Assembly (NCBI GenBank): GCA_021292105.1
Contig: CM037869.1
Location: 1,769,001 to 1,833,000, forward strand
DNA length: 64,000 nt
Reading direction: 5' to 3'
From: Anadara kagoshimensis
Taxonomy: Eukaryota; Mollusca; Bivalvia; Arcoida; Arcidae
Shown piece by piece: positions 22,001-59,107 of this stretch. Position numbers and translations under genes: made by a program. Numbering within the stretch: position 1 is the first letter of the stretch; every line of letters begins with the position of its first letter. The notes beneath the pieces were generated by a model. The model worked only from the letters and a program-made list of their open reading frames with translations. It searched no databases and was not told the DNA's origin.

Positions 22001-25000
22001 TTCTCATTGTGACGTCATTAGGGAGAATGTAGAACAATGTCATAACATAGTTCAGTGGTTTTCTGTGGTAAAATGTAATTTTTCACATTAAGTATTGTTT
22101 TTTTATTGTTTTAAATAACCTAATTGGAAATGTTAGATAAAAATATTATATACACAGTGTGTAGGTACAACCCTCGCATCAGGTCTCGTCCTTTTTTCGT
22201 AGCTGTATCACTACTCGTCGCGCAAGCGCGACTCGTAGTGATACGGCTACGAAAAAAGGACTCGACCTGATACTGAGGGTTATACCTACACCACTGTGTA
22301 TATAAAATGTATGTATCATGTTCGAGATAGTTAAGCCTTATTCCAATGCAAGTATGTTTGAATCAGTTGTATGGTCTTAAACGTATTGTGAAACATGTTT
22401 GATAAGCGCCTAAGAAAAGTTTTGTGAAACATTGTGAATTTTTTTTAAAAGTAATTTGCTACTTTTTATTTTTATAAAATAATGCATATATACCAATTTT
22501 GAATGTATTGAATGATAACATTTAAGATAATGGAATATACATATACCGGCGTTGGACATTTGGGCGAAAGCATAGGACAAAAGAGCGAGAAAATACGGAC
22601 GTTGGAGCTCAAATGTCTACTAAATCGTCGCCCCTAAAATGTCCACTAGAACCTTTTTTCATTTTCGCTCAAATGACCTGCGCCCACATAAACACTAACT
22701 TTATTTCCGTCTTTAACTGACAACACAATCCCAAGTATTTAAAGCATATATACCCTTCATGCCAAATTACCCCATTTCACAAAAAAAAGTTGTGTTCAGT
22801 AAGAATACTGTTTTGTGTTGTCACCGCAGGGTAACATAATGCAAAAATAAATACATTTTATTGTGTACCTTTTAAAAGATGTTTTTAACAAAAAATAAAT
22901 AAAAAAATAAAGTACGTTTCTTTGGTAACGTAACGGGAAAAGGCTTATTAAATAGTGTTCAGTTCATACCAATACGAAACATAACTCGTGAAGCAATATA
23001 TCTCTAGATATCATACGATCCAATATAATGATGACATTTTAACAGCCAGACAGAATTTTTTATCGGAAAAACAAGAATCTATCTATTTCCTGAAAAATAC
23101 AGTTTCCAAATACATAATTATTTATATATATGACATTCAAATCGTATACTTATTGTCTTTACCTGAATATTTAAAGTGTACATATTCACAACATATGTAT
23201 TCTTAAAAAATAACATTAACAAATATTAACCGTATGATATAATAAAATTTTGTAACTTTTCGTTAAAAGTACCTGTTAACCGTGTTTAATAACTTGCTTG
23301 TATGTGCATTTCGTGTTTTGTGCGTGATAAGGTGTACAATTTAAATAAAAAATCGATTCTATTTTCATGTAGTGCTTGTAATAAGGTATTATATCTTAAA
23401 TAAAAATAGGGGTGGTGGTGTGTGGATTTTTTAAAATCAAAATTGTTGCCACGGAAACGGTATTTTCATGTAGTGCTTGCATCGGATATCTGTGAGCACC
23501 ACAGCATAAGTTTGGTAAAACATGTATTGGCCCTTTCGAATACTTTTTTTTCAAAATCTTGGGAAAAAATTGGTTTCACATTTTTTTACCTAAGCACTTG
23601 TATTCTGAAACCGCCGTCTAGTGTTGTTAAATTACAGCTGGTACATGTTGATATGTAATTTGGACATGGACAGATATGTTTAAGTTGTGATATTTACATA
23701 TTGGTTTCACAATTTTTACCCAAGCATTACTGATGAGGAATTGTATTCCGAAACGGCCGTCTAGTGTTGTAAAATTACAGCTGGTATAATATGTAATTTG
23801 GACATGGACCGATATGTTTAAGTTGTGATATTAACATGTCAGTACCTGGTGTTATCCTGGAAATCCGAACAATGAGAATCAAAAAGCCTCTACGACGGAT
23901 AGTAATATTGAAAATCTGAAATTTAACTAAGGTAACAATCCCATCCCTTAAGAAAGTGTTAAAAATTAACGCCGTTGGCTTGGTAACTTAATTTTGTATA
24001 ATATTAAATCCAGAAAGTTGGTGTTCAATCGCCATGTCCGCAGGCAACATATCTAAAGTAAGCTGACTCCTCTCCAAATAATTATATTTCACACCCCAAC
24101 ATGACAATGGTATTTTGAATTTCTATGCTGGCAGCGGATTTTGTTTCCAAACAACACGGCTTGTGTTTGAAATTTGATATTGATAAATTTATACTGCTAA
24201 AAAAAACGTAAAAAAGTATCTAAAAGTAAATGTCACTAGTGATTATTACCAAAGATATCCATGGCCCGAAGAAAAATTATACATTTGATGTACTGGGGTC
24301 AAAGGTGTTGTATTTTCCATCGAAACAATGTCCCTGTTTACTCCCCAAAACGTTATATCGTTACCGTCAGGTCATATTTGTCTATGCTAGGGTTTCATCT
24401 AGCGACCGAAATACACACGCAGACTAAATTGGATTGCAAGAGCTTTTATGTCGCGTCACTACTAACTTAAACGAAATGAACAAAATAAATAAATAAACGC
24501 ATTACTAATACATCATTTTCATCATCTTTGTCATCGTCGTCGGCGGCGGCGACGGCCATTTTGACTATCGAGTTAACCGAGGACCTGACAACTCCTCTTT
24601 TGTTGCTCGATTTTGCTTGCTCGATTATGCTCTTAATCATCAGATACATTATTAATTGCCGATTCTTGTATTTTATCAGAAATTCCTGCGTTTAACCAAG
24701 GTAAAGCCGTCTGTAGAACCAATATGGTGTAACTCGATACATAAAACTGTAGTTACTGATGTTGTAATGTAACAAACATAAATAAAACATGTCAAACATC
24801 AATACCTCTTAATAATTAAAGTCAACTGTAAGTGTAAAAATATAATAAAGAGTTTGTAACAATAACTGCACAAATATCATTGTTCAAATCAAGTGAACAA
24901 CACAGCATTCTATAAGAGAATATGTTAAACGGTGCTTAATCTAAACAGTCCAAAGCTCTAGGTATCCACAAGAAATATTTTGATATTTTTCACTACGGGG

Positions 25001-28000
25001 AACCCCCGTGAGCATTGATAGCGCATATGAATGTAATTTGTAACTGGAAAACATGTGCTTGGCAGCAGGCAATGCAATAGTAGAGGCAAACAACATACTA
25101 CAAAGTTCTTTAGTTTATTGTTACCATCAAAACCACTGGAGATTGTAGCTGATCATATAATAATATATACATATGATGATAGATACATATTATAGGAATT
25201 GATACAATACATATAATATAAACGTAATGCATGCACAATTTACAATACCATAAAGTGAATACGTAATGCACCAGTAGACTAAACCTAAAGCAGAGGCGAT
25301 AAGTGACCCAGTAAGGCCCTACCCACAGGTCCAGCTCTACAATGCCTATTATCTAAACTAAGCGAACAAGACTACGCTTTAACACATAATGGTGGTGTAC
25401 GTAGTAAGCTAAAGATGAGGTGCTTACCCTTTCCGGAGCTCCCAGGCTCACTTTCCTGGTTGAATTTCACGTGTTTGGGTTTGAGTTTAAAAGTTTTAAC
25501 TTTGCTTTGGGATTGATTTGCAATTTTGTTTTCAATTGTTACTATTAATTATAGAAATACTAGAAATAATACTAACAGAACTGGTAAACGTTTTGTGTCG
25601 TAGTATCCGGTATATAGGAACATCATCACAGAAGACTCCTAGAGTCGGATACCCCAAACCTAAACAAGCTAATGATATTTTGCAATTTAAACATCTAATT
25701 CTGTCAATGAAGAGGATAAGCTTTTCACCCCTCGGGGAAGTTAAAATTAACTTGGTTGCCATAGTAACACATTAACAATGTACAATATAGTTAGAAAGCT
25801 ATTGTTCAATTTCTATGTCTGGGGGCATAGTCACTAAAACGTTGATACCTTCGTAATTATCTTTGGCGCCATATTTGGCATTTAAAGGTTGAAACCTGAC
25901 AGATGCTTTTGTTTCCAAACAATACGAATCATGATCAATATTTAATATTGATCACTGTAACTGAAAAATACAAAAAAGAAACAGCCAATGGGAACTAGAA
26001 ATAAAACAAATCCCAACCAATGCATGTCCAAACCACAATCCCAAAGCAATGAAAAACAAACATACCAATTCATGTCGAAATCACAACCCCAAAGCAAAGT
26101 AAAAACTTTAAAAATTGGCAAAATTAGTTAAACCAAAAAATTTCTTTTAGAGAATAAAGGCGGGATGCATCGGAAGGGAAAGTACCTTCTGATAAGCTAG
26201 CTCTATCCACCACGTATGTTAACTAAATTGAAAATAAAATAAACATGAAACCATGGGGGGAAAAGAGAAATCAAACTAATAAAGATAGAAACATTGCAAA
26301 AATAATGCATACCTACATATAAGGGCAAACAGACGGCATTGGCAGTGTTAACAAAAGTTAAACAACAAGGAAAGATTCATACACGTACATACAAGGGTCA
26401 TTAAAAAAATTAGCAGCTAAATTTGGTTAAATATATTTTTATCCTTTCGATATTTTTTCAACCCCTTGAAAACAATTTTGGTCCAAGCACTAATGATGGG
26501 GAATTGTATTCCGAATCGGTATTGCTATAAAATTATTAAAACTAGTATAGTGTGTACCCCAAGCCCAATTTTAAAGACAACTAAACGGTCAAAGGCTTTG
26601 AAATGAAATCAATGCAGTGATTAATTCTGTTTAAAACTATTCAAATTTTCCTTCTATACAGATATGCATTTAAGTAATAAAAATGTGTCTCGAAGTAATT
26701 TCGCTTTTGGTATTGGTGTCAAACAGCAAGAGGCGCTGTGGTCCGATTATATAGACCAATCGGCCACCGATGTCCCCTATGTCCATGTAGGTAGTCAGTT
26801 GGTAGTCGGTAACTGTTTACCGTCTTGTTATAAAATAAAACAAACGATAATAAAGTCAAGGTAAAATCACGAAAAACGACTGTGTATGGCATTCCCGTTT
26901 ACTTCTCATCTTTGTGTTCTAAAATGTTGATCAAATTCACCGCTGTGAAACATAAGTAAAGCCAATAAGTTCTTTTTTCTTGTATGATCATGTACTTCAA
27001 TATCAAAAACAATTTCCCTTCTATATATAAATTATCAGATTACTCAGACGGCTCGAAAACTTGAGTCAGTTATTCAGGTAAATGCGACATGGATTGGTAT
27101 GTTTGTTTTTTATTTAAGAGAAAAACAATATGGTATGGTATGGTAATACTATGAATTTGATGTTCATGAAACATGGAAATAGAAATAATAATTGAATACT
27201 AGTATAAACTGCAGATAACCCATCTATATAGTAATCGTTTAGAACTAAGGCACTGAAAGAACTCCGTGTTAAGATATTTTGACATATACATCAGGGGTCC
27301 CCCGTGAGGACATATAAACTACTCTTGTGATCTTTAAATTCCTTGCAGGCATAGGTCATAGGTCATTAAGTCAATAGGTTAACTGACAATCCAATATTTT
27401 TGTCTCAGTAGCTCTCTTTGGTAAATTGGTAAAATATTTTGCAATTCTTTTGGACCAAATGAATGGGTAAATAAAAAAAATGGTCACCATTACAGTTAGG
27501 AAACTATAAGCAATGTTAACAATGACGGATACCTAACATATAGCAAAAAACAAATATACTACTAGTAATTCATGTCCAATTACAAAAAAACTGTGAAACG
27601 GACAAATTAAGTTAAACACATGAACTTCAATCAGGGAAATTATGACGGGTGTTCAGGAAGTGTAAGCGCCTATATAATACATAGCCATAAAACATTTGTA
27701 ATCTGTAAGATGGCTTCGAGTGACTCAGTCCTGGACTGGAAATCAAACACTTGAGAGCGTAACAGTTAACATCTATTTTATTGGCGCCAATATAGAAATT
27801 ATAAACGAAATTCAAGGCTAAACCACGGTTTTGTAAAGATTACCTTGACCTTTTTATTTTTACGTGTTTTATAATGCATTTATATATGCACCTTATTTCT
27901 AGTTTTATAAAACGTTTATCACAGTGACTGCTGTGAAATAAATCGTCAGCTACTTCGTTCTATACCTTGTTCAATTAAGCTGGTAAGTTTTACTACAACA

Positions 28001-36800: not shown

Positions 36801-39800
36801 TTTTAATTATAAATGGCGATTTTTCGTCTTTGTTTTGTATGCTAATTAAAAATCACATACAGTTCTTGAGAGAGTAACACTGAATATGTCACGTGTAGCC
36901 TCGAGAGAAAAGTTAAGACACATTAAAAATTGAGTTGAGAAAACCGTCAGCTGTTTTCTACAGTTGTCGAGAGTTGTCATTATTTCTTTTCTTATTAATT
37001 TGCGTTTCCTTAGCAATAGGCTATTGATATTTTTTTTACAAATTAACAAAATATTCAGAATTTCTGATATGTCCAATTTATTTTTAAAAATATGTTTATG
37101 TTTTATTTCGCTATGTTGAGTCATATATATATAATTGGGATGAAGTAAGACCATAACTAAGCTAATGAAAGTTGTTTTGTCATTTTCGTGTCATCAAATT
37201 TCTATGTTTGGTGACAAAAACAGACGTTTTATTTCGGAAGTCTTTAAGCTGCATCAAATGTTTTACTTTTTAGCTCAGAATACGTCAAAGATTACGATTA
37301 TTAGCGTCATCTATTATGGCGCTTTAGAAGGAACTTTCTTTTGGATTAAAATGATATTTTCAGTCCGTAACGCCATCACCTTGGTGACAATAAATGACGT
37401 TTTATTTCGGAAGTCTTTAAGCTGCATTAAATGCTTTACTTTTTAGCTCAGAGTAGGTCAAAGAACACGATTATTAGCGTCATCTTTTATGGCTTTGTTG
37501 TGGATTAAAATGAAATTTGTAGTCTGTATCGCCACCACTTTGATCTACTTTATCGACACGTATCATATAACTAACTACACGGTGGTTAAACTTTACATTT
37601 CACAACTTGTAATTAATCTACACCAAGTTAAAGGTTATACCATTCCAAATCTCGAGAGTGCTCACGTCCCGACGAGAATGTCGACGTGATTTATAAATAT
37701 TCTCCCGGGATGCATTAGATATATCGTTTCCCCGTTTGAAAGCGTTCTTGTCTCTATCAGATGTGTAAAAATACAAATTTTTATACATTAGTTGAGATGT
37801 TATTAATTCGACTGACTTCAGAAAGTCAATCGATTCTACAAATGGACTCTTAATTTTGTTTTATGTTGAACGTAGAAAGTTAGAAAAGCGTATTGATTTT
37901 TAGTTATAGCTTCAATATTGTCGCGGGTAATTGAGCGTTTAATAAGAACCTAATGAAGGAAACATGAGGGTTTTGACATTGAGATATCAGCATTGTATTT
38001 CATTAAATCTGGACTTTTATAAATAACAGATAATGTCGTTTATCTTTTACATGCATTTAAAAAAACGGTTTTTGCTGGATTTGTCTTAAGATAAATGATG
38101 ACTGAAGTTAGAGTCGGGTTTAATTATAGATATTTGTCTAAAGTTTGAAGACAATTCTATTAGGAGAATACAATTTACGTTGCAAAAGCCTATGACAAAA
38201 TGCAAATTACTTGTAACACAAAATGCTGAATATTAAAATTTAGCTTTCTAATAAAAAACTTAAATGACAATAAACTATAATAAAATAAAATAAAATGAAA
38301 TTTAAAAAAGTCAAACTTAATACTTGGCATTTCAGAGGCAGTTGGGTTGAGATTGAATGAATTCGGTGACAGGTAACGAGGACTTTGGATGAATTCGGTG
38401 ACAGGTAACGAGGACTTTGGATGAATTCGGTGACAGGTAACGAGGACTTTGAATGAATTCGGTGACAGGTAACGAGGACTTTGAATGAATTCGGTGACAG
38501 GTAACGAGGACTTTGAATGAATTCGGTGACAAATAACGAGGATTTTGAATGAATTCGGTGACAGGTAACGAGGACTTTGGATGAATTCGGTGACAGGTAA
38601 CGAGGACTTTGAATGAATTCGGTGACAGGTAACGAGGACTTTGAATGAATTCGATGACAGGTAACGAGGACTTTGAATGAATTCGGTGACAGGTAACGAG
38701 GACTTTGAATGAATTCGGTGACAGGTAACGAGGACTTTGGATGAATTCGGTGACAGGTAACGAGGACTTTGAATGAATTCGGTGACAGGTAACGAGGACT
38801 TTGGAAGACCTTCTCTAAATCATCTAACTTTCTGGCAACCATTGGCTTGAAATTAGAATCTTCAGTTTTCTTTAACAACTTATATAAATAATAGACGTTT
38901 AAAGCTTTAATACAAGACATCAATTGCCCAGGACACACATAACCTTTTCTCTTTGACCATAAAACAAAATATACAAATGTATATAAACAAATGGTGTAAA
39001 ATGGCTCTGAAAATATAGTCTACAAGTCCAACCATACAACTGGACCATCAACATACTGTTAATGTGTTCATTGTTCATTATTTTATATATAAACATCGTC
39101 ATTCCTATAACACTTGACCTTTGGAATTCTGTCTAAATGCCATACATTTCCACATTCAATCTTATTCCCTGCGTGACTGTCTCAAATCTTATGGCTATGT
39201 GTACTTTGTGATCGAAGTTTTTATGGTGGCAGCAAATGAATCGAAAAGGAAAACAGTGTAGTGTCATTAAGAAAGGAAATGCATACAAATTGTTCTAACA
39301 TAAATGTAAATTTTAAGTCATACTTATATACAGTCCATATACCGGAGGATCCATGGGCGGAAAACAATTCACCATAATATAGTGCAATTTGAAATCGAGC
39401 AATTATCTATGAAACTAAGAGAGTGACTAAGCCATTACCAGAACTATAATAATTAAAAAATCAAATGAAATCAAAATGATAAGAATAACAACACATTACA
39501 TTTCGCGGTTGTTTTTTTTTTTTTGGGGGGGGGGGGGGAGGTGGGGCGTTAGTCGTGATCCTAGTTTTGAAGGCGATGCAGTATTTTAACTTTTTTATAT
39601 GGTAACCATTTTATTGATCCTGTAAACCATGAATTATTAATTTATATTTTAGTAGAACATATATAGGTCATTTGGGTCTCTTTTCAACATCTTGGAAAAA
39701 ATTTTGGTTTCATAATTTTGGCCCAAGTACTACTAATGAGGAATTGTATTCCGAAACGGCCGTCTAGTGCTGTAAAATTAAAACTTGTATAATATGTAAT

Positions 39801-42800
39801 TATATTGTAATCTTCTACTGCAAATTGAAGACTTGAGCAAGTGCTCAAAAGGAGCACATGGTAAGTTTTGAATGATATACATTGTCGATATATAACAAAG
39901 ATACGTGGGATAAGCAATCTAACTTCCATTTGTGTAACTTATGCATATGATTTTGAAAAGTTCTTGTATTGCTTGAAGTATTGTTATCCATACATTGTGT
40001 GCATAGTTTTACTTTGTTTGTTTTTCTATTTCAGTTTATAGAGCGAAGATATAGGGAAGAAATGGCAAGAGGTGAGTATATACATATGTATTGAATAACT
40101 CTTAAATTGTTCGGTAATTAAAAGAAAGACTACATGTGGTTTTATCACTCAACACATCATATAGATTTATGTAACTTATAACTACTTAACACTCTTTCTC
40201 TCGAAAAAACAAAGTTCGTCAGTTACAACCGCTTTCGAGAATTTCACACTTAATACGCTATGACACGGGAATTTTATACAAGGAATCAAACTTTAAGCTG
40301 CTTACAAATAACGCGTTGACCCCGGGAATTTGCAAGCCAAGGCTTAACAATGCCTTCAAAATTTTTATGTCTGTCATTCCAGTATTGTTGATAAGTATGG
40401 TGTCTCTCTATCCAAAGTTATACTTGGTATATTTGACGTCAAACAGCTCCAGGTTCCTTTCATTTACAATTTTGATTATACACGTGACGGATGTAGCTAG
40501 CTAAACAGACTGTGCTCACCCTTCCGGAGAACCAGGTCCTCAGATCATTGGTGATACAAGCAGTTTCACTTGATGTACTAGATTTGCCAGTTTTCAAAAC
40601 TTGAAGTATGACTTAAAAATAAAGTGATATTTCTGTTATGGTTTCATTGGAAGTTCAGCAAACAGAATAGAATGTAATAACAGTCATAATAAAGAATATA
40701 ATACAGTATGGCACTACTGACCTTGGTTATCAGAACTACTAGTATATTACAATATAATTCTGATCACCATGGCCAACGATGCCATACTATTATTGTAACA
40801 ATAATGACGCCATCATTTGTGTGGCGTGACTTGTCCGTATTGTTGGTATTTTCGCCAGGAACAATTTGCCCATTACAAAAAGAACATTTTCAAGCATTAT
40901 ACAATAAACAGAATCTCATATTCTGGTCCATGTGATATTGAGTTTATTGCCGTCGTTACTTAAATGTTTATTGCTTGTTGCATAAAGGTTTATTCAATTC
41001 GTTTAATAAATTCAATATTGCATTATTTGAGGCTATGTCTAAAGCAAGTTTGTGAAAAAATTACTTTCACCCAACATATATCTTGCATAACTTGTAAAAT
41101 GATAACTCGGTTAAAAGTTCATGTTATTTCATTTTTAACTTTTTATAAACTACTTATATTGTGTTTATGATATAACTTGCACCATGCTCTATACAGTTAT
41201 ATGAACTACAGTCCAACCTGTCTATAAAGAAAATAAAGGAAACCAGTAAAAGTGGCCTTTAAGGGCAGGTGGGTTTTATATACAGGTTCAAATAGTATGA
41301 ATTAAGGTAGTTCCATACCATGGTGACGTCGACGTTTTGTGCGTACGGTCGAAATGTTTGATTTGACGTCTTTTTCATCTATGACGTCACGAATATGTGG
41401 TCTTTGGCGCCTACAGAATTTTGGCGGGAACGCTGTTACGCGTATCGTTTAGATGTATTTTCTGCATTCACAAAAGATTATAATTCACATTATTGACATT
41501 ATAATATTAAATTTGAGTACTATTTAAAAGAACTAATCTAATTGCATAAGAAAGATCTACGCTGTTGAGGGCACAATTCTAAATAATTGAAAGATTTGAG
41601 TACACCGTTTAAAATTTGAATTACTGTGATGTAAATGCTGCTTCATGTGACTTTTTTTGGTGAATTTAAATAAAGATAGTATGACAGAAACTGACGATTC
41701 TTCAATAAACATAATGTATAATAATTTTTATCGGTGTCAAATTGACCACGCTCTTGTATTTGCGTTTCATTTCGGCGTGCTAGAATCAAGAACTCTTCAT
41801 CAATATATACGAATTCCCCTTTCCACTTTAATTCATGTGTTTGGTAACGGTTGCTATGGGTACAGACCATATGAAATTCAAAACTGGTTTTGTTTTGCAC
41901 AACCAAAATAGCTCAAAATAGGTGTTTTTAATAATTATTTGTTAATAACAAACGAAAACATGCGTTCATAATAGTATACTTAGGCATTAATGGTATCTTC
42001 TTATGTAAGGAATGGGCTTTTTTTTCTTGTTTCAGGATTTTGATGCAATTTTATGAAAAAAGTAGCTTGACGACCCCCTATTTTTTGTTTCCGAAAATCA
42101 AACTTATATATTTATGTGCAATATATGTGAAAATCAGGGGTCGTATTCGACTTAGTTTTTTAATTATCTACAAATTTACGAAAGGGTGATACTTTAAGTT
42201 TTACAGAATTTTAATGTTCTCTCTTGATAGTTGGCGCTGTAGAAAATCTTCACGTCACCGGAAGTAAAATTCCATTGGTCCAAATAATCTTCATGACATT
42301 ATAGTTAATTTAAATGCAAGACACTTTTGGTTTCTAAGCATGACAAAAAACCATTAAAGCTTATTTGTTGATACCAGTGGTCATACTTTGATAATTTATC
42401 CCGTGAAAATGGTCACCAGGTGGCGCTTCAGAACTTCTTAAGCAAGTCGAATACCTGCCCTGAAATTTTGGCATGTTGAATGGTTTATGTCCATGTACAA
42501 CATATCAAATTTTCATTATGTGTTTTCAGGCGATTTGTAAAGTATGCAACTACCTTAAGAACAAATTGGATACAATTTTATTGGCCTTTATAAGCAGGTG
42601 GTCCTTATACAAAGGTGGCCTTTAAGGCAGGTTGGACTGTATATAAATTCTGTTATTTGTTTTATATATTTTGGGGGTTTTTTTTTACTTTTTTCCGTAA
42701 CTATTTACATATCAATGAGAGGATATTTGATATTACATCTACACATCTATATATCAGTACAAATACACATTCAGATATTTATTAAATTATAATAATTACT

Positions 42801-45385
42801 CTTCTAATTCTCATTGATCTTTGGCAAATCCTTAAACAAAAACAAGAAATAAGATATCCTTAATAATTATAAAAATTTTTAATTATGCCCAGACTCTATG
42901 ATTGTATTATCTGCTTCATTTGCTTAAAATTAAAGTCTGTCCCGAGCCATTAGGCCCATCAGGCCGGAGCTTATCCCGGTTTCTGTGGCGTTGAGCGACT
43001 GAGAGTACAAGACTCTCCCCTGAATGGGACGCCGGTCCATCGCAGGGTTAACCCCCAGCATTTTGCTGGTACTCATTTATTTTTCAGCTGAGTGAACTGG
43101 AACAACGTGAAATTAAGTGTCTTGCTCAAGGACACAACACATCGCCCGGTCCAGGGATCGAACCCACGACCTTCGAATCACGAGTCCAACGCCTTAACCA
43201 CTAGGCCACGCGCTTCCAAGTTCATTTGCTTAACGTACATTTAATTAATACATGTCTGTCCTCAAGCCAAATGCTATGGTTTAGTGACGTGAAAGACCAC
43301 ACCTTTAAATGCTGCAGTATTTGCGCACAAGCTGTATAGAACATAACAAGCATTAATTAGCCAAAGGTTCGAGAACATACACGTGTATCAAAGGATCCGT
43401 AAATTTGAACGGAGAAAGAGACACGCAAATTATTTTTCCAAGACTAAAAGAATGTATAAATTATTTATTGTCAATATTCTGACTTTGAGCCGACCTTGAA
43501 CATAATGATGGATGAAGTGGCGTAATCAATTACTAAATCAGACAAAAACACACCAGTCCATGTCCATGTCCAAATCACGATCTCAAAACTGGCAAACTAA
43601 AATAAATACGTGAAGTTTTACCAGTGAAGTGGAAGCACAATATAGCAAAAGTACTTGAAAACAGTCAGGTTACCAAAGAAGGCACATGTAAAATAAAAAT
43701 ACATTATGTTTATAAACATTAGCAACATTAACAACAAGAAAAAGAAACAGAAATATATGCATTAGCCAACAGACTCAAGAACACAACACATTACAAGTAG
43801 TGACACTCCCGATTATAATAACCATCGCTATGGACGAACACCCGACCAATAATCACAGTCTTCAAGTATGTTTAAATTCCGTTCAATCAAACACAAGCAT
43901 ACCAGGCCATGGTCAATTTTGTCGCTATTGCGCTTTTACGGTTCTACACAACAATGACTGCAGCATTTGAGGGCATGGTCTATCACGTCACTAAACCACA
44001 GCACTTGGCTTAAGGACAGAGATGTATTAATTAAATACGTTATAGCAATCAAGCAGAAAACATAATTATAAAGTCTGAAGTTCTGAACACAATTATATTT
44101 TGAGCACCCGGCCTTACGTCCATGGTGAAAGTTCACGTGTCTAACCTAACTTGTCAATTTCAAAGCTTTTCCTTTGCTTCTGGATTGCGATTCGGACATG
44201 GATAAGTGTGTCTGTTTTTCATTTCAACGTCATAATTTACCAAAATATTGACATACTATACACTTACAAAATCATTTACTTTCAAATGTAGCTTATGTAT
44301 TAAGAAATTATGCTTTATAATACCTTTTGGTCTTTCTAATTTTCTCATGTCAACATCTTAAAAATATTTGGATTTTCTCAGTTTTGGTCAGAGCACTAAT
44401 GATGAAGTTTACTCTGAAACGACTGTCTAGTGCTGCGTAATCAAAACTGGTTTAGAAATAATTAATTTCAAAAGCAGTTTAGGTATTTGGTGCGCACACA
44501 AATGCAGGTACAATCACTGACACGTGTAATGGAACGGGTGTGCATTCTTCATCATAAAACATTATGTAATATATGATAGCAGGTGATTGACTTTAATATG
44601 AAATCTCTAAATACTTTAAAGTAAATCTAGTTATAGATCTTCCGTACACCAACTCGTTAATGGTTTATATAAACTTTATCCGTATTTTATAGTCTTTATT
44701 TTATCGTTGCATAAATAATTATTTTACATAAAAAGAAGACTAAAGGAAAACGTGCTGCACTTAATAGCATAGTTATGTTTTATACATAAACTAAGAGGTA
44801 GAATCAAGATGTTTGCCGTAGTTTACTGAGATAACTTAAAATAAGCTTCTTATTTCTCCGGATTATATAACGTGTGGTTCTTTGATAAAACGGTTTTCTA
44901 TTCTCTCTTTTACGTCTTATTTTTTACATTAACCAGTCAGACCAGATAGAGGTTGTATTTATAAACTTGTCATGATTTCGCTACTTTTGAATGTCATGCT
45001 TTATATAAAAACATGTATGAGTATATCAGATTGTTTGAGAATGTTTCTGATTCTGTTACTCGTCAGAGTATCTCTAGATAAAAAGAGTAATGAATAGGTC
45101 TTTGTTCTTCAAAATACGTTTACTTGATGTTCTAGGATAATTTTGTTTTTTACTATTCGTTATTAAAAAAGATATTAAAATAGAGAACAAACCTGGCGCC
45201 ATGAATGTTATCTTACTTTCTTTTTTAAAATTGAAAAAAAGAAATGAGATAAAAAGAAAGAAAATCGAATCTAGGTACTCTAGTATCATCAGAACGCAAA
45301 TAAATGGAAAGCATAAACAATCATAAAAGACACGCTGGATTTTAGTTTTATTGAAGAACATTATTTATTTATATATTCAATTTAT

Positions 45386-51024: not shown

Positions 51025-54000
51025 GTGCTTTTTAAGATAATAATTGCCAGAAACTATAATAATTATTTGAGTTTTTCAAGTGGATACATTCATAATGAGG
51101 ATAAAAAGATTCACAACTAAATATGAAGAAGAAAGACATTTAGGAAAATTGCTTCAGACGAGCAAAAACATTATGATGGTGTTGAGTAGTGTATAATGCA
51201 GGTGCTTGTAAAGGATATTTATAAGCCCATTGTTAATTTATCCGACTTCAAATTGATCAAAAAGGATTCATATATAGTTTGGAAAATTCTTCAATATAGG
51301 TCTATGTATTTTTGTGAAGTTAGATTCTTGGATTTTATAAAAGCCATTTTATTAGTGTTTATACACAACATACATGTAGTTGAGGACATACAAAATATAA
51401 TTTGTGAATATGTCTTATTTACAGAAAGCTAAATGTAGTTGAGTGCCACTGATGACAATGAAACAAAATAAATTAAGAAAAGTCTGGAAAATCTTTGTTT
51501 CTGGTATAGATTATCTTATTGGACTAATGCTTCGAAAATACAATCTGTTGTAGTACGCAAGGATAAGATATCTAATTGAAACTGACAAAGTAACAAAGTA
51601 ATTTCAATAAATTGAATTAGCCAAGATTTTCATTTTGTCATTTAGGGTTTATTTAATAAATACAAAATGAAACATTCATCATTTCTTATATCTTCCTTAT
51701 TATCAATGATGGATGGAATTGTTTCAATATCTTTGGAGAAAAGTCAGTTTAAGATTTAGAATGATAGATATCGCAAAATTATTTAAAAAAATATTATTTA
51801 ACAAACTTTTTTTTAAACTGATTTTTTTAAATTATCATAACGACCATACAATAGTTTACATACAATGCACGCACGTGTAAAATGTTTCGGCTAAATCTCG
51901 TTCAAGATTCAGCGACATCGACCTCGTGTATCTGATTATTGCCATCCACGGCCGTAGGGTTCATTAATATTGGATTGAGCAATTCTGTTTGTGATCCAAC
52001 TGCTATGGTATATAATATCTGCGAGTTTTAAGCACAGTTTTAGGTAAACAGTATTCTTGAAACTAAACGAAATGTAAAATTCTCGAACTGTGTTCAGACC
52101 CAGTCATCTATAAATTTTGCCGTCTAGTGCTGTAAAATTAAAACTTATATAATATGTAATTGTTATATTGGGGAATATCAAAAACCAGTCTATGCAGCGA
52201 AATATGCTTCGATCAGTGAAACATTGCATAGTTTGTAATCAACTGTAAAATGAAGTAGATCTAAAGATTTGATGTTCTAATAGATACCATATTCCTACCA
52301 GAAGGCGAAGCAAGATAAATTAAATACACGGTTCATAAGATCCACGAATGTGGATAACGTACTGTACAAACCTGTCGAAAGTTTAACACTAAGTTATCAA
52401 AAAGGGGACGAATATCGACTGCCGAGTGGCCAAAATATGGATAGCAAGTGATCCGAAAAGCTTGCGAGATATATAAATAGGATCTGTAGAAAAACTGTCG
52501 AGATAAAGCTAACGAGAGGCCGTAATGAGCTGTCGATTAGTTAGGTTAGTGTTAAACTTACGACATGCCTGTCCTGTAGATCTAAAGGCAATTAAACTAT
52601 AACTCGCCCATGTGGCTAATTGGTGTATATTATACGAGTACATTTCGTGCTTTTGACTGCTAATTACATCATAACTAACTTGTTTATATAATATATCATC
52701 ATTTTATAATGGAAATACGGAGTAAATTTATATACATGTATGACATTAATGTATTTATGTTAGTGCATATAATGCCTTGCTCTGTTACAATATTCACAAC
52801 AGCCCTTCCCCTATATTTCTCCTTTGTCATATTTCCCCATTTCCCCCCGTCCCTCACCTTTCCATGTTCCCCCTTTTTTCAAGTGCTTAACTTAAAATAT
52901 CGTTAGCTGTGACTGGTGGCATGGCAGTGTGACCGACCAAATTAAACATTAATAAAGTGTTAGTGCATTTTATACATTGTCCCGTTACAATATTCAGTAC
53001 ATATAGTATCTATCAACTTTGCTTCTGGATTGTGATTCGGACATGGAATAGTATGTTTGCTTTTGGTTCACAGCTTTCGAGAGCTTATATCTAAGGCATT
53101 ACTGCAAATTGATATGCACTTGGCAACGACCGAAGCAATCAAGAAAACAATATAACAAAAGAATGAAAAAAGAAAAGTAGATACAATATGAACGCATAAT
53201 AACTTCAAATTATTACGCAATGTAGGAATTGGGAGTAATGCATATATGTAGTACCATTCACTATTCAAATATTCACAAAACCCGAGTTAAATGTGAGGTA
53301 TTGCTGTAAAAATCATCTACCTGACAATAGCCAGGGCTTGCAACCGAGAATGACATACGACATAAGAATGCAACGAGAGCTATAAACACAATATGAATAC
53401 ATTATAAGACAACAGATAATTACGTAATGTAGAAATGTTGGCGATACTAATATGTAGTTGGCAATAACAAAACAATTAATTAAGGAAACTGCGACACAGA
53501 AAACAAGACGAGGTAAACAAGCGTGTATAATGCCGTGTTTATAAGACCGTGAAATTATGTACCCGTTCAACCCAAGAACACGACACAATACAAGTCAATG
53601 ATAAAACAACCAACACGACACAATACAAGTCAATGATAAAACAACCAACACAACCAAGAACACGACACAATACAAGTCAATGATAAAACAACAAACACAA
53701 CCAAGAACACGACACAATACAAGTTAATGATAAAACAGACAACACAACCAAGAACACGACACAATACAAGTCAATGATAAAACAACCAACACGACACAAT
53801 ACAAGTTAATGATAACCAAGAACACGACACAATACAAGTTAATGATAAAACAACCAACACAACCAAGAACACGACACAATACAAGTTAATGATAAAACAA
53901 CCAACAAAACCAAGAACACGACACAATACAAGTTAATGATGAAACAGCCAACACAACCAAGAACACGACACAATACAAGTTAATGATAAAACAACCAACA

Positions 54001-57000: not shown

Positions 57001-59107
57001 CATATAAAGTTATGTTGTTTTAGTTTCATATAATTAGAATTACATATTATTCCAATTGTATTTTCAATATTACAAGATTCGGATGATGTAACTAACTTGT
57101 CACCAAATAAATATGTAATATGTATCATATATGAAATTTTCAAGTCACATCAATGTATCCGTAAACTGAGAACAAAGAAACAAAGAACATTACATTCATT
57201 TGATAAAATAGGGTCTATAACAGTCTCATCATGTGATCAACATCAATTCCCGATTTCCGGGTACACGAACATTAGGCGTATTAAAAAATTAAAAGCAAAC
57301 ATAGAAACCCATGTCTTAACTAAAATCAAAAAGCAAAGTAAAAACTTTGAAGCAGGTAAATTAGGTTAAACACGTGAAATTCCACTAAGGAAGTGAGGTC
57401 GAATAGTCCGGAAGGGTAGCACCTCTTGTTAAGCTAGCTGCATTCGCCACGTGTGTAATCAAAATTTGGAATACAAGGAACATGAAACTATGGGAGCCAG
57501 GGCAAATTTGATGTCACATAGCCCCATGTTCCTTTCATTTCCAAATTTGATTACGTCTTTCAGTCTCTGTCTTTAAATATCGGCTATGGAATACTATTAT
57601 ATCCGTTACATGCCCCATAGATTAATACAGTGCATAGACGCAAAACAACATTTAAAACATAAAATCAAAATAGCACACTTTTGCTCATCTGAAAACAGCA
57701 TCCACAATCCCACTCTTATTTGATGCTATATTAGTAAGATGACATCAAAGTGATGCACATCAATTTATACAATTATTATGTCAATTATATTACTGACTTG
57801 ATACAGACCTATGCCAAAATATAACATTTGTAGTATATTTGTAGTACTGTACTTTTGTGACTAACATGTACTTCCTGCTGAGTAAGAGATAAAAAATAAT
57901 TAATACTTTCCTGTTTCAAAAATTTAGTATCAGAAATGCGGCTATAAACAGGTACTTCAGAAGAATAAAGTGAAAAATAAATAAGATCAAAAGTTGAGTA
58001 CATGTGTACTGTACATGTAAATGACCCATGTAATGTTTTTATTTGAGTCAGTTTCACACGTTCGAATCTTATTGGTTAGGACATGGATTGCATTTTGACT
58101 GTTTACCCTAACGTTGAGCATAATGGAGAAACAAAAGACAATAAAAACACTGATCAATGACGTTAAAATTCGGGGTTTTGGCGGCAGGTTCCCGTCGTAG
58201 ATTGTAAACAGTAATGGTAAAATACATTGTACATAGTTCAGTTTCAACAAAATTTCAAAGAAACGCTCAAATTCGCTTGCATTTTGTTTGTTAAAACTAT
58301 AAGTATTTTGTTTATAAACCTGGCGATAATAACCTTCGGCCATTGAAGTTTTATTCTTCGTACAGAGCCTAAACATACACTGGCTTTTGTGGTGTCTCAA
58401 CTTTCGTTGCTGACCTACGAATTCCGATGTCAATGAAATCATATATATTACAGGTTTGAACGGTAATTACAAGTAACGAATCTACGAACGCATTAAATCA
58501 CATTTTGTTTCTTAGATCCACAGTTGGTGATTTCTTTAAATAAAAATTTTGGTTTCATAATTTTGGTCAAAGCACTACTGATGAGGAGTTGTATTCCGAA
58601 ACGGTCATCTAGTGCTGTAAAATCAAAACTTGTATAATATGTAATAATTCTATTTTATCTTTTATTTTAGTACCAGGACAGCAGATTTCTATTTCTTCAT
58701 GGATATCAGATGAGGATTTAGCCTTTACAAATCAGCTATCATACCGCCATGGAAGAATAGTAGTGCCATCTAGCGGTCTATATTACGTTTACAGTCAAGT
58801 CTCGTTCATGGAGACGTTTCCACACAACAGGATTCCGGATTTTACAACAACGTCAAACAGTTTATCTCATTATATATACCGATATAACGTCATATATAGA
58901 CAAGGCGGGGAAGAATTACTTATACAAAATTCTATGACTAAATGTTGGGACGAAAACAGAAAATTTGGAGAATATACCAGTTATTTAGGTGCTTTGTTCC
59001 ATCTTAGAAGAAGTGACGAAATTTTTGTAAAAGTTTCTAATTTGACAATGATGATGAAACATCCAAAACAAAATTATTTTGGTATTTTTAAAATATCTAA
59101 TTTATGA
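18574..59107 (+). CDS. TNF superfamily ligand (TRAIL/FasL-like), four coding exons
   Basis: Joined CDS: 18574-19026, 40035-40071, 56764-56859, 58671-59107 (1023 nt, 340 residues plus stop). Seen: each intron has GT-AG ends with pyrimidine-rich acceptors, and phases 0, 1, 1 keep one open frame. Exon 1 joined directly to exon 3 hits a stop at once, so the 37-nt exon 2 is needed. Protein order: cytoplasmic region 1-50; hydrophobic segment about 51-77; stalk about 78-175; TNF homology domain about 178-340. Domain landmarks are RPAAHL (178-183, strand A), W206, GLYYVYSQVSF (231-241), SYLGALFHL (299-307) and C-terminal YFGIFKI (331-337). Family knowledge: such ligands are type II membrane proteins that trimerise and engage TNF-receptor family members in apoptosis or NF-kB signalling. 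C287-W288 matches the zinc-cysteine position of TRAIL. N319-L-T is a possible N-glycosylation site. Receptor and exact orthology are unknown; a further microexon cannot be excluded. Confidence 0.9.
19036..19075 (+). repeat. (CT)n microsatellite immediately after the exon 1 donor
   Basis: A CT run of about 20 units begins about 10 nt after the GT of the exon 1 donor. Read-through into it encodes Leu-Ser repeats and stays open to 19203. Pyrimidine runs so close to a donor can affect splice-site use. Confidence 0.93.
19580..20200. repeat. Diverged tandem repeat in intron 1
   Basis: Four to five loosely conserved units of about 100-140 bp, each with GAAATTAACA or a variant, a CCAGTT or CAGTTC block, TAACTGCTT, and AACTTTATTTGATAAAA. 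Divergence is high. Confidence 0.5.
20366..21711 (+). repeat. 57-bp minisatellite, about 23 copies
   Basis: The unit contains CCGTATGTTATGGGACTAGG and TTTGCTGACAATG. Because 57 is a multiple of three, open frames encode a 19-residue repeat with YGTRFADN. Variant units lacking the CCG (CATCATATGTTATGG) recur and suggest higher-order duplication. Stops break the frame and no start or splice context supports coding. Confidence 0.9.
22147..22304. repeat. 158-bp near-perfect foldback palindrome
   Basis: Left arm TATATACACAGTG...CGTCGCGC and right arm GCGCGACTCG...CACTGTGTATATA pair over about 76 bp with a 2-nt centre near 22224. A smaller hairpin with GTATCACCACACTGTGGTGATAC-type pairing lies at about 21935-21972. 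Outer sequences (TTTTATCTAACATT near 21868, AATGTTAGATAAA near 22129) also form an inverted pair. Confidence 0.85.
23560..23832 (+). repeat. Tandem pair of hammerhead-bearing repeat units (~143 bp)
   Basis: Two units share 'TTGGTTTCAC', a hammerhead segment, 'AATTACAGCTGGTA' and 'TTTGGACATGGAC'. Equivalent cut positions are 23618 and 23761, a 143-bp period. The upstream unit has lost the CTGATGA segment and half of stem II and should be inactive. Tandem arrangement is what a self-cleaving, circularising RNA element would leave. The family is non-coding. Confidence 0.7.
23723..23768 (+). ncRNA. Type I hammerhead ribozyme, core intact
   Basis: Stem I 5' strand AGCATTA (23723-23729) pairs with TAGTGTT (23762-23768) using two G-U wobbles. 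The core CTGATGA is at 23730-23736. Stem II is GGAAT/ATTCC (23737-23741, 23745-23749) closed by TGT. The core GAAA is at 23750-23753. A two-base-pair stem III with loop GGCC ends in the cleavage triplet GTC, so the predicted cut follows C23761. All conserved catalytic bases are present. Short stem III with open stem I is the form known from animal retrozymes and Penelope-like elements. Activity is inferred from the fold. Confidence 0.82.
23950..24190 (+). repeat. Diverged dispersed repeat (partner at about 25740-25960)
   Basis: The two stretches share GTTAAAA.TTAAC, AGAAAG.T...GTTCAAT, ATGTC.G..GGCA and TTTTGTTTCCAAACAA in the same order. No coding content. Confidence 0.4.
25428..25530 (+). 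mobile_element. Truncated RT-element 3' tail
   Basis: GAGGTGCTTACCCTTTCCGG, TCACTTTCCTGG and TTTGCTTTGGGATTG match the family, strongly diverged. Confidence 0.5.
26035..26230 (-). mobile_element. Truncated RT-element 3' tail
   Basis: AAACATACCAATTCATGTCG, CCCAAAGCAAAGTAAAAACT and CTAGCTCTATCCACCACGTA mark a reverse copy. Confidence 0.6.
26448..26555 (+). repeat. Degenerate hammerhead repeat copy
   Basis: Stem I 5' strand AGCACTA (26486-26492) and stem II GGAAT/ATTCC persist. The core has decayed (ATGATGG, GAAT) and the cleavage triplet is lost. Flanks match the family (AATTTTGGTCCAAGC upstream, AATTATTAAAACT downstream). Confidence 0.6.
27560..27695 (-). mobile_element. Truncated RT-element 3' tail, decayed
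   Basis: AATTCATGTCCAATTAC, TTAAGTTAAACACATGAAC and GGGTGTTCAGGAAGTGTAAG match the reverse family consensus. Confidence 0.5.
28574..28716 (+). repeat. 34-bp tandem repeat, four copies
   Basis: Unit begins GGCTGTTTTGTCGTTAGC and recurs at 28574, 28608, 28642 and 28676. Confidence 0.88.
28720..30100. other. Intron 1 DNA, nothing recognised
   Basis: AT-rich. A loose inverted pair exists between TTGAACTGTCTAGAAATG (29456) and GACAGTTCAATGG (29588), possibly a small foldback. No gene supported. Confidence 0.35.
30105..30376 (-). mobile_element. Truncated RT-element 3' tail
   Basis: A well-preserved reverse copy: CTAATCCATGTCCGAATCAC, GAGGCCGGGTGCTCCGGAAG, ACACCCGCCACGTGTGTAAT and GTGATGACGGCCATAAAAC. 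A poly-A run of about 25 nt (30386-30410) adjoins it on the right. Confidence 0.8.
30411..30753 (+). other. Unassigned open stretch after a poly-A run
   Basis: An open frame without internal stops runs from about 30411 to the TGA at 30751-30753 (about 114 codons, first ATG 30496), and the opposite strand is also open over much of it. Composition is less AT-rich than the surroundings. I do not recognise a family on either strand, and no splice context links it to the TNF gene. It may be a fragment of a retroposed or mobile coding sequence. Confidence 0.25.
30817..30882 (+). repeat. (GA)n microsatellite, interrupted
   Basis: GA run with two AGAAG interruptions. Confidence 0.9.
31486..31532 (+). 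repeat. 13-bp tandem repeat
   Basis: Three to four units of ACGTACCAAGAAA. Confidence 0.85.
32006..32689. mobile_element. Long terminal-inverted-repeat element, non-coding
   Basis: The left end TGTTACGCCACATAGCGGTG and right end CACCGCTATGTGGCGTAACA are exact inverted copies. Inverted similarity extends inward through CGCATAAACGTG, CTATGCGGGGAATT and CGCATAAAGAG to well over 100 bp. Flanks ACAGCATT and ACAGCCTG could be an imperfect 8-bp duplication. The middle is simple sequence rich in CAT, CAC and TTA triplets; no transposase is visible. Confidence 0.78.
32715..32852 (+). mobile_element. Truncated RT-element 3' tail
   Basis: GGAGGTGCTTACCCTTCCGG, AGCACCCGGCCTCACTTCCC and GATTCGGACATGGATTAGTA; close to the family consensus. 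Confidence 0.78.
33060..33212 (+). mobile_element. Partial 'TTTAACACT' inverted-repeat element (right end)
   Basis: GCACTAATTCG...TAGTGTTAAACTTTCGACAGG and GTACTG match the right end of the copies at 5627 and 52359; the left end has decayed. Confidence 0.5.
33213..35467. other. Intron 1 DNA, nothing recognised
   Basis: AT-rich sequence with only short unassigned open frames. Confidence 0.35.
35468..35703 (-). mobile_element. tRNA-derived SINE, reverse copy
   Basis: Reverse complement of the 9128-9455 SINE: box motifs at the right end (CAACTGAGTCACCGCAGTGG about 35682) and body GTGACACGGGACCTCGTTTA. The tail end is truncated at the left. Confidence 0.8.
35800..36050 (-). mobile_element. Truncated RT-element 3' tail, decayed
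   Basis: GGTCCATGTCCAAATTAAAG, GAGGCCAAGTGCTCCAGAAA, GTGACGTCAAATATA and GTGATGACGGTCAT follow the reverse consensus; TTTTTGAGGGTCTTGAAAAG extends into the RT-proximal part. Confidence 0.6.
37215..37530 (+). repeat. About 171-bp direct repeat, two copies
   Basis: GACGTTTTATTTCGGAAGTC at 37223 and 37394, followed by shared TTTAAGCTGCAT.AAATG and GATTATTAGCGTCATC. Confidence 0.75.
37690..38340. other. Intron 1 DNA, nothing recognised
   Basis: AT-rich with no supported feature. Confidence 0.35.
38359..38803 (-). repeat. 32-bp minisatellite, about 14 copies
   Basis: Unit GAATTCGGTGACAGGTAACG plus AGGACTTTGRAT, nearly identical throughout, each with an EcoRI site sequence. As 3 x 32 = 96, the frame cycles through all three phases every 32 residues and stays open; that explains the 232-codon minus-strand open frame, which I do not regard as a gene. 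Confidence 0.92.
39512..39542 (+). repeat. Poly-T/poly-G junction
   Basis: About 14 T followed by about 14 G, then GAGGTGGGG; a sharp homopolymer switch prone to assembly error. Confidence 0.85.
39680..39800 (+). ncRNA. Hammerhead-bearing repeat in intron 1 with core mutation
   Basis: Same family: stem I AGTACTA (39726-39732) with TAGTGCT (39765-39771), stem II GGAAT/ATTCC, GAAA and GTC all intact. The core reads CTAATGA, a G-to-A change at the conserved G5 position, which is expected to abolish cleavage. It is the best-preserved full-length single copy (about 120 bp), ending in 'ATAATATGTAAT', and lies about 235 bp before exon 2. Confidence 0.7.
40035..40071 (+). CDS. TNF ligand exon 2 (37-nt microexon, stalk)
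   Basis: Flanked by TTTCTATTTCAG and GTGAGT. It enters in phase 0 and leaves in phase 1, encoding 12 basic and acidic residues (152-163, with ERRYREE) plus the first base of Gly164. It is the only phase-compatible bridge I found between exons 1 and 3. The arginine-rich stretch lies just before the TNF domain, where family members are often shed by proteases; no clean R-X-K/R-R furin site is present, so cleavage is only a possibility. Confidence 0.75.
40330..40605 (+). mobile_element. Truncated RT-element 3' tail
   Basis: From CAAGCCAAGGCTTAACAATG through ACAATTTTGATTATACACGT, GATGTAGCTAGCTAAACAG and CTTCCGGAGAACC. It starts at the same RT-proximal point as the 4855 copy, about 260 bp after TNF exon 2. 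Confidence 0.65.
41207..42641 (+). mobile_element. 'TACAGTCMAACCTG' inverted-repeat element split by an insertion
   Basis: The left part (41207-41305) and right part (42555-42641) together match the intact copies at 54953-55135 and 49868-50050. The ends TACAGTCCAACCTGTC and GCAGGTTGGACTGTA are inverted. The insertion at 41306-42554 separates the halves. Confidence 0.8.
41306..42554. mobile_element. 1.25-kb insertion flanked by TTAA
   Basis: Ends GGTAGTTCCATAC and GTATGCAACTACC are 13-bp inverted repeats with one mismatch. TTAA stands on both sides (41302-41305, 42555-42558) while the uninterrupted relatives have one site, so TTAA is a target duplication, the piggyBac pattern; a TA duplication with longer repeats is the alternative. 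No transposase frame is visible. Confidence 0.72.
42930..43216 (-). mobile_element. tRNA-derived SINE, second family
   Basis: In reverse complement the head has GTGGCCTAGTGG (A box) and GGTCGTGGGTTCGATCC (B box), then a body with GGACCGGCGTCCCATTCAGG. It differs from the 9128 family. Not a functional tRNA. Confidence 0.75.
43540..43640 (-). mobile_element. RT-element 3' tail fragment
   Basis: CACACCAGTCCATGTCCATG, AAATCACGATCTCAAA and ACGTGAAGTTTTACCAG; short and decayed. Confidence 0.45.
44100..44220 (+). mobile_element. Truncated RT-element 3' tail
   Basis: TGAGCACCCGGCCTTACGTC, GTTCACGTGTCTAACCTAAC and GATTCGGACATGGATAAG. Confidence 0.7.
44345..44460 (+). repeat. Degenerate hammerhead repeat copy
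   Basis: Stem I AGCACTA (44392-44398) and TAGTGCT (44428-44434) still pair perfectly, and GAAAC with GTC are kept. The first core base is A instead of C (ATGATGA) and stem II is shortened. Upstream TTTTGGTCAGAGC matches the family. Confidence 0.58.
44470..46560. other. Intron 2 DNA with one tetranucleotide run
   Basis: (TTTA)n at about 45389-45437; otherwise AT-rich with nothing recognised. Confidence 0.4.
46569..46634 (+). repeat. (GT)n-(GA)n microsatellite
   Basis: About 50 bp of GT followed by a short GA run. Confidence 0.92.
47560..48060 (+). pseudogene. LINE reverse transcriptase C-terminal remnant and 3' end (probable)
   Basis: The frame from 47569 reads CDKCICNDIEDEYHFLLKSP, the Cys-x2-Cys and EDExHFLL pattern common after the RT domain of non-LTR elements. 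A frame change follows near 47740 and then KLRNLGLFL-like residues. The following AT-rich stretch ends with AATAAATAAAATGAAAT, like a LINE tail. The 5' part is absent. Assigned by motif memory only. Confidence 0.5.
48398..48740 (+). mobile_element. tRNA-derived SINE
   Basis: Head TAGTTCAGTTGGTAGAGTG and GGGCTCGAACCCC, body GGGAACTTAAAATAAACGA, tail GACTGGGACGTTAAACAGCA. Same family as 9128-9455, more diverged. A GGTTTTCTCCGAGTATTTTGG block at 48910-48930 lies in the following 240 bp and may be part of another dispersed element. Confidence 0.8.
49000..49860. other. Intron 2 DNA, nothing recognised
   Basis: AT-rich; no supported feature. Confidence 0.35.
49868..50050 (-). mobile_element. 'TACAGTCMAACCTG' inverted-repeat element, reverse copy
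   Basis: Starts TACAGTCCAACCTGCC and ends AGACAGGTTTGACTGTA. About 183 bp, no coding capacity; the PVYKGHPREP-type peptide read across it is the translated repeat. Confidence 0.82.
50051..52115. other. Intron 2 DNA with a GA microsatellite
   Basis: (GA)n at 50973-51021. Remaining short open frames have no family features. Confidence 0.4.
52119..52160 (+). repeat. 5'-truncated hammerhead repeat fragment
   Basis: Only the end of the unit remains: the cleavage triplet, TAGTGCTG, and the 3' part up to ATAATATGTAAT. It lacks the catalytic core. Confidence 0.55.
52359..52578 (+). mobile_element. Inverted-repeat (MITE-like) element, 'TGTCGAAAGTTTAACACT' family
   Basis: Full copy: left GTACAAACCTGTCGAAAGTT, right GTGTTAAACTTACGACATGC...CTGTAG. 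About 220 bp, non-coding. Confidence 0.7.
53018..53062 (+). mobile_element. RT-element extreme 3' fragment
   Basis: TTTGCTTCTGGATTGTGATTC, GGACATGGAATAGTATGTTTG; only the last 45 bp of the tail. Confidence 0.6.
53574..54882 (-). repeat. 33/47-bp compound minisatellite, 1.3 kb
   Basis: The core AAGAACACGACACAATACAA plus GTTAATGAT repeats throughout. In 53574-54400 most units carry an extra AAACAACCAACACAACC and are about 47 bp. In 54400-54882 units are about 33 bp. The 33-bp units keep frame, giving open frames with an 11-residue repeat on both strands. I read these as array artefacts. Confidence 0.92.
54953..55135 (+). mobile_element. 'TACAGTCMAACCTG' inverted-repeat element
   Basis: Intact copy: TACAGTCAAACCTGTC at the left, GGCAGGTTCGACTGTA at the right. 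Internal GGCCTTTATA...AGCAGGTGGCC motifs are themselves repeated in both orientations. Confidence 0.82.
55487..56231. mobile_element. Inverted-repeat element holding 172-bp tandem units
   Basis: The ends GTCCCCCGCCG (55487) and CGGCGGGGGAC (56221-56231) are exact inverted repeats. Inside, GCGCTTACAAGGTCAAG-type units start at 55611, 55783 and 55956 with a partial fourth at 56129 (period 172-173). It finishes with an ACGGACGGACGG run and CCCCGCTCCGCGTTGCGG. No clear target duplication. Confidence 0.75.
56388..56613 (+). mobile_element. Truncated RT-element 3' tail
   Basis: CCTTGATATATTTGACGTCC, GGGTGTAGCTAGC, TTCATGTGTTTAACCTAAC and GATTCGGACGTGGATTAG, ending 150 bp before TNF exon 3. Confidence 0.75.
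56764..56859 (+). CDS. TNF ligand exon 3: start of TNF homology domain
   Basis: Preceded by TATATTTTCAG and followed by GTGGGT, phase 1 in and phase 1 out. It encodes residues 165-195, including VVRPAAHLMG, which matches the first strand (K/R-P-x-A-H) of TNF family domains. The 96-nt length is a multiple of three, so skipping would keep frame but remove strand A. Confidence 0.85.
57285..57545 (-). mobile_element. RT-element 3' tail with an inverted fragment attached
   Basis: A reverse copy (57285-57500: AAGTGAGGTCGAATAGTCCG, GCCACGTGTGTAATCAAAAT) meets a short plus-orientation fragment (57508-57545: GATGTCACATAG, CATGTTCCTTTCATTTCC), forming a small head-to-head palindrome in intron 3. Confidence 0.6.
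57546..58530. other. Intron 3 DNA, nothing recognised
   Basis: A minus-strand open frame of 151 codons (57987-58442) lies here. It shows a hydrophobic stretch but no family feature I recognise, and I do not call it a gene. Confidence 0.35.
58531..58645 (+). ncRNA. Hammerhead-bearing repeat next to TNF exon 4 acceptor
   Basis: Stem I AGCACTA (58571-58577) and TAGTGCT (58610-58616) pair perfectly over 7 bp. Core CTGATGA is 58578-58584, stem II is GGAGT/ATTCC with loop TGT, and GAAA is 58598-58601. Stem III carries a C-A mismatch (triplet ATC instead of GTC), so the fold is nearly but not fully intact. The predicted cut after C58609 is 61 nt before exon 4, and the repeat's end runs into the pyrimidine tract. 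It lies in sense orientation in intron 3. Confidence 0.72.
58671..59107 (+). CDS. TNF ligand exon 4: bulk of TNF homology domain and stop
   Basis: The acceptor is TTTTATTTTAG. The first two bases complete Val196 and the frame runs to TGA at 59105-59107. It carries the family signature GLYYVYSQVSF (231-241), C287-W288, SYLGALFHL (299-307), a strand with DEIFVKVSNL (311-320) and the terminal YFGIFKI (331-337) that lines the trimer core in family structures. Only one cysteine lies in the domain, unlike the paired cysteines of FasL or TNF-alpha, so a TRAIL-like zinc site is plausible. Confidence 0.92.

Follow-up and report, generated by a model that had tools for sequence, protein, structure and literature searches.

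A type I hammerhead motif in a bivalve genome, within a probable 5'-truncated copy of a non-LTR retrozyme

The complete type I hammerhead motif that we describe at positions 23723-23768 of the window (the whole 64,000-nucleotide stretch of DNA analysed here) very probably lies in a dead copy, truncated at its 5' end, of a metazoan non-LTR retrozyme that was moved via internally primed reverse transcription. Going by its sequence, the family is classed as an additional metazoan non-LTR retrozyme, and the predicted hammerhead as such as one more in a known class. The kinship to animal retrozymes suggested in a preliminary description of this DNA is supported by the number of copies in the genome and by the retrozyme features described in PMC7229834.

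The hammerhead motif and related copies in the window

The segment 23723-23768 carries the CTGANGA / GAAA / NUH core and three stems on the + strand and is open at stem I, as a type I hammerhead is. Stem I, 7 bp long and including two G-U wobbles, joins 23723-23729 to 23762-23768 and is followed by the core CTGATGA (23730-23736), a stem II of 5 bp (23737-23741 with 23745-23749, loop TGT), GAAA (23750-23753), a stem III of 2 bp (A23753-T23760 and C23754-G23759, loop GGCC) and the cleavage triplet GTC (23759-23761), with the predicted cut between 23761 and 23762. The full core, the paired stem I, the 5-bp stem II and the 2-bp stem III with loop GGCC reported in the preliminary description are all found on the sequence, and the 5' end at 23762 implied there coincides with the site at which self-cleavage is expected.

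A structure descriptor comprising the core, a stem I of at least 6 pairs, a stem II of at least 4 and at least 1 further pair in stem III gave 1 match when both window strands were searched, and 200 shuffles that preserved dinucleotides gave none, on which ground we rejected a chance match; a 17-base segment around GAAA..GTC has 5 matches with up to 3 mismatches, against 0.05 expected. With 71 bases as query, the whole of the Rfam hammerhead model RF00163 was matched, with a score of 24.9 bits (E 1.3e-4), which supports the labels of type I and short stem III given earlier, but the score lies under the gathering score of 34, and Rfam reported no hammerhead on the whole window at the gathering threshold or on a 501-base stretch even at E 10. 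Hammerheads are often missed by energy models. When the 46-base segment was folded to minimum energy, stem II and six stem I pairs were kept, but some core bases paired with the segment of stem III; longer window segments folded differently, and none of these folds returned the full hammerhead. The energy folds of the motif are not support for a hammerhead.

Copies were numbered against one unit of the best array in the genome (locus L002, described below), with the first base of CTGATGA as 0. BLAST of this unit matched seven stretches of the window, all on the + strand, to one dispersed repeat, with an intact ribozyme in one copy and a decayed one in six. The intact ribozyme belongs to the copy at 23701..23799 (unit -29..+70), whose 3' end falls at the site preferred by the family, and beside it, at 23503..23661 (unit -91..+70), lies a copy from which the ribozyme core is deleted. 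The others are a decayed copy at 26415..26549 (unit -91..+59), a copy with core CTAATGA at 39645..39801 (unit -87..+69), a copy with core ATGATGA and a decayed stem II at 44351..44454 (unit -47..+59), a short copy at 52119..52161 (unit +26..+69) that begins within the ribozyme and is without the core, and a copy at 58542..58645 (unit -36..+68) whose ribozyme is nearly intact, with a C-A mismatch in stem III and the triplet ATC. The family members cited earlier at 58571 and 44392 do exist and keep a 7-bp stem I, but neither is an intact ribozyme. The neighbouring copies at 23503..23661 and 23701..23799 are a local tandem duplication that includes flanking DNA, because beyond query base 118 only the window's own two copies align (among the 41 genome matches listed; 40 of 2,611 candidates were scored), and a mini-retrozyme of ~143 nt, which the pair had suggested, was rejected on this ground.

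Several further features adjoin these copies or share the window with them. The hammerhead copy at 58542-58645 precedes by ~25 bases a putative 3' splice site, read by eye as the AG at 58669-58670; the exon to which this site would belong, in the region 58667-59107, codes for a TNF domain (Pfam E 5.2e-29). A second dispersed repeat of ~110-126 bp, with copies 83-87% alike, occurs at 44095-44223, where it adjoins the retrozyme copy at 44351, and near 5034, 30099, 32743, 56493 and 63096. Unrelated tandem arrays occupy 20431-21692, 38353-38803 and 53577-54872 (units of 57, 32 and 33/47 bp), and 43147-43210 on the - strand gives a tRNA-like match of 29.5 bits, against a gathering score of 29, which is perhaps a SINE head or a tRNA relic.

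The pairing of stem I had been described earlier as a feature shared among copies; common ancestry explains it, and it is not independent support for the ribozyme. Among 67 copies selected by their core, irrespective of stem I, 8 of the 33 one-sided changes still pair, as does 1 of 2 double changes; in 40 copies lacking the exact pattern, we counted 53 one-sided changes (14 pairing) and 4 double changes (2 pairing). Compensatory covariation in stem I is absent among these 67 and 40 copies, so that the covariation check named in the preliminary description came out negative for this stem, and we rejected its pairing as covariation. The changes in the copies resemble neutral decay, and the test is a weak one for the active lineage, because most copies are descendants decaying in place.

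A genome-wide family with a preferred 3' end and scattered 5' ends

Searching the genome (1.115 Gb, 36 contigs) with a 28-base pattern of core and stem II, we found 8,642 places (4,374 + 4,268) with up to 1 mismatch, and 0 places for the reversed control pattern at the same tolerance. An exact pattern scan of viral contigs gave 0 matches, and a whole-genome scan with RF00163 gave 0 matches here but none in its 14 control genomes either, and so is uninformative. The best array, L002, holds five hammerheads 338-339 bp apart in contiguous units of ~339 bp that leave no room for coding sequence; 200-base segments of adjacent units show 98.5-99.5% identity, and unit GC is 0.34-0.35. One of the five L002 units was reported by Rfam (RF00163, 28.1 bits), a tRNA scan of the array found 0, and other neighbouring copies lie 310-363 bp apart (allowed spacing 290-400 bp). 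Like metazoan non-LTR retrozymes, the family consists of low-GC tandem repeats within the range of ~150-450 bp, with one type I hammerhead each, and is dispersed, multicopy and without LTR or coding capacity, the non-coding status being read from the 339-bp unit length and the contiguity of units in L002. Folded as a circle, the unit has no extra stability (z 0.11 and -0.82 against 60 shuffles), and the predicted circular folds show an internal loop in stem I.

The retrozyme of the mussel Mytilus galloprovincialis is described as ~5,000 hammerhead copies in repeats of ~350-390 bp with circular RNA, for which the clones MN642551-MN642576 are named, and closure of the circles by RtcB is reported in vitro (Cervera and de la Pena 2020, PMC7229834). 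By what is described there, the family here is alike in being a non-coding, low-GC tandem repeat (~339 bp) with one type I hammerhead per unit and thousands of copies; it differs in that circular RNA was observed in the mussel and is a prediction for the family here. The very short stem III recalls the axolotl and newt retrozymes (satellite 2): in the account of PMC7229834, HHR_Amex2 resembles the motif here in closing a tetraloop with two stem III pairs, whereas stem III of HHR_Amex1 is one pair. Copy numbers and repeats of the axolotl and newt are, as far as tested, unrelated to the family here. The sequence ACGGCCGT is here a full palindrome, and two transcripts could pair into a dimeric ribozyme.

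To map the ends of copies, we aligned against the L002 unit a set of 95, drawn from 90 loci of contig C1 and covering 92 of 100 listed places (of the 8,642); these copies were chosen by the exact core pattern, with a few extras in L038 and L080 at up to 3 substitutions. Dropping five that ran off the query end and 14 near-duplicates left 76 non-redundant copies. Their 3' ends fall at unit +64..+74 in 66 of the 76, 22 of them at +69, and as the ribozyme cut lies after +31, the preferred 3' end is ~38 nt past the cut. By comparison, 5' ends reach at most 9 per 11-nt window, where a uniform spread gives 7.2 on average and up to 11, and thus show no clustering beyond uniform. Most copies are incomplete, 59 being shorter than one unit in aligned length, 15 spanning one to two units and 2 at least two. 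Twenty internal junctions read through the 3'-end site, against 77 classed as terminal, a few of which (L012, L072, L074) look like diverged internal ones. All seven window copies, a set picked independently of the core pattern, end at +59..+70. Agreement on the 3' end is poorer among incidental copies close to the anchors, most of them older (19 of 33 at +57..+74, 9 at +39..+56 and 5 elsewhere).

The copies suggest internally primed reverse transcription of circular or multimeric RNA. Because internal units read through the 3'-end site, the RNA template continued past the point where copying started, and because copies run across the cut instead of stopping at GTC, as those made from a ribozyme-cut linear monomer should, the template was uncut, multimeric or a re-closed circle. 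A target-site duplication, for which the retrozyme criterion is more than 4 bp when present, is clear in 1 of 76 copies (L008, ~28 bp); flank duplications reaching 10 bases were seen in 9 of 76, against 4.2 expected, and for two of the nine the match is to the unit of the array itself. Around 66 copies, flanking DNA is 70% and 72% AT against a background of 68%, which is no clear AT preference.

In the five-unit L002 array, each of the 14 variable columns sets a single unit apart (a small shift in unit 4 accounts for five), and in the four-unit L080 array 10 of 10 are likewise private, past a misaligned 5' end. Seven of the private L080 changes lie in the first (5'-most) unit, with its core at 1164, and the other three units have 1 each; an error-prone last copying round or a different template is possible for this unit. 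Private differences, as read from these two long arrays, a small sample, fit repeated copying of one circle, because its units would be identical at birth, and they disfavour stepwise duplication or the copying of a heterogeneous array, because shared differences would then tend to arise and there are none among the L002 columns. In a nearest-relative test, a weak one, the neighbour was closest in 15 of 42 cases, 13 of these in L002 and L080.

We propose that tandem units would be transcribed, that their hammerheads would cut the transcript into monomers and that a host ligase would close the monomers into circles. A reverse transcriptase borrowed from an autonomous element would begin at a single internal position of the RNA, circular or multimeric, with target DNA as the probable primer. 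It would go round the template once or more and could stop at any point, so that the 3' end would be fixed and the 5' end ragged. Inserted copies would then decay, in the manner of six of the seven window copies. A fixed internal 3' end of animal retrozymes is not described in the titles or opening abstract lines of the papers that literature searches listed, or in the passages concerned of PMC7229834, PMC11167929 and PMC7761336, although it may be in print; for the mussel retrozyme in particular, the passages concerned of PMC7229834 give no description of the preferred internal 3' end and 5' truncation seen here.

Candidate sources of the reverse transcriptase

Penelope-like elements (PLEs) are put forward as strong candidate movers of retrozymes in the part of PMC7229834 that treats them, both kinds of element having type I hammerheads, occurring in tandem and coexisting. 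We think it quite possible, if somewhat short of probable, that Penelope-like reverse transcriptases move animal retrozymes, with the ribozyme and its ~38-nt tail acting as a PLE-like start signal and an internal start on a circle giving fixed 3' ends, ragged 5' ends and initially identical units. For the purified Anolis PLE PAc, reverse transcription is reported to start inside the RNA, downstream of the hammerhead, and genomic copies to end there (Frangieh 2024, PMC11167929). As far as that account goes, PAc and the family here are alike in having a hammerhead, a tail, a preferred internal 3' end of genomic copies and tandem or partial tandem copies. They differ in that PLEs code for a reverse transcriptase (RT) and GIY-YIG, which the retrozyme unit does not, in that the PAc start lies ~85-92 nt past the ribozyme cut (from positions given in PMC11167929) as against ~38 nt here, and in that PAc is said there to prefer AT-rich ATT targets, whereas we see no such preference above background.

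Elements with RT and a C-terminal GIY-YIG are present in the genome: L092 and L094 have both domains over the Pfam cut-off, and L093 has RT at E 0.0019, under the cut-off. The L094-type PLE has a minimal hammerhead-like motif beyond its ORF (by eye), which Rfam did not report as a hammerhead and which has 101 genome matches with up to 2 mismatches. Downstream of these motifs, L094 and six short stretches are alike to column ~97-100, where four diverge and three continue. This layout of ribozyme, tail (~64 nt, against ~38 here) and preferred 3' end resembles that of the retrozyme. PLEs in this genome are often inverted pairs (L094 373-5320 is a near-perfect 4.9-kb palindrome, 99% over 4,952 bases), L094 has a second ORF with a C2H2 zinc finger, and in L091 (3351-5801) GIY-YIG stands N-terminal to a PLE-like RT motif (by eye), a permuted domain order. 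PLEs with permuted GIY-YIG/RT order are known.

LINE-type target-primed reverse transcription also gives a fixed 3' end and ragged 5' ends, and we regard as possible, but rather doubtful, that the mover of the retrozyme was not a PLE but a LINE, recognising an ordinary tail at the 3' end. The ends of the copies match this process, and the ~28-bp duplication of the L008 copy speaks for it as well, but the template reads past the 3' end, so that priming is internal and not at the RNA end. A LINE of this kind would also be expected to share the retrozyme tail, the last ~20 nt of which end in TATAATATGTAATT. Of 84 distinct tail matches in 356 kb, one has no relation to the retrozyme, and genome-wide the retrozyme body (exact pattern) directly precedes 3,369 of 5,672 exact tails, the remainder being open to explanation by mutation and truncation; neither a partner element nor a LINE sharing the tail was seen in the 356 kb or among the exact tails genome-wide.

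That the repeat is itself a piece of an autonomous PLE, namely a terminal repeat with a ribozyme and no retrozyme, we consider very unlikely. Type I hammerheads and tandem copies do occur in PLEs, according to the relevant parts of PMC7229834 and PMC11167929, and the genome has RT + GIY-YIG elements, one family of them with a hammerhead-like motif followed by a common 3' tail. Against this, the 339-bp L002 units are directly contiguous and leave no coding space, the unit has no BLAST match better than E 0.09 to L092 or L093 and none at E 1 to L094, and PLE hammerheads are described as minimal, whereas here stem I is 7 bp long and stem III is closed. No RT + GIY-YIG frame flanked by the retrozyme unit was found among the L002-type loci and the three PLE loci. 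That the repeat is an array of ordinary satellite DNA, multiplied by DNA duplication and carrying an idle remnant of a ribozyme, is extremely improbable: arrays exist and the window pair at 23503-23799 is a local DNA duplication with its flank, but 59 of 76 copies are shorter than one unit, with different flanks and one common 3' end, and stepwise growth should have left shared differences, of which there are none among the 14 variable L002 columns.

A retrozyme copied from an internal site of its RNA is thus the reading that we prefer. The thousands of copies of this family, with one preferred internal 3' end, make directly testable the idea that PLEs bring animal retrozymes back into DNA.
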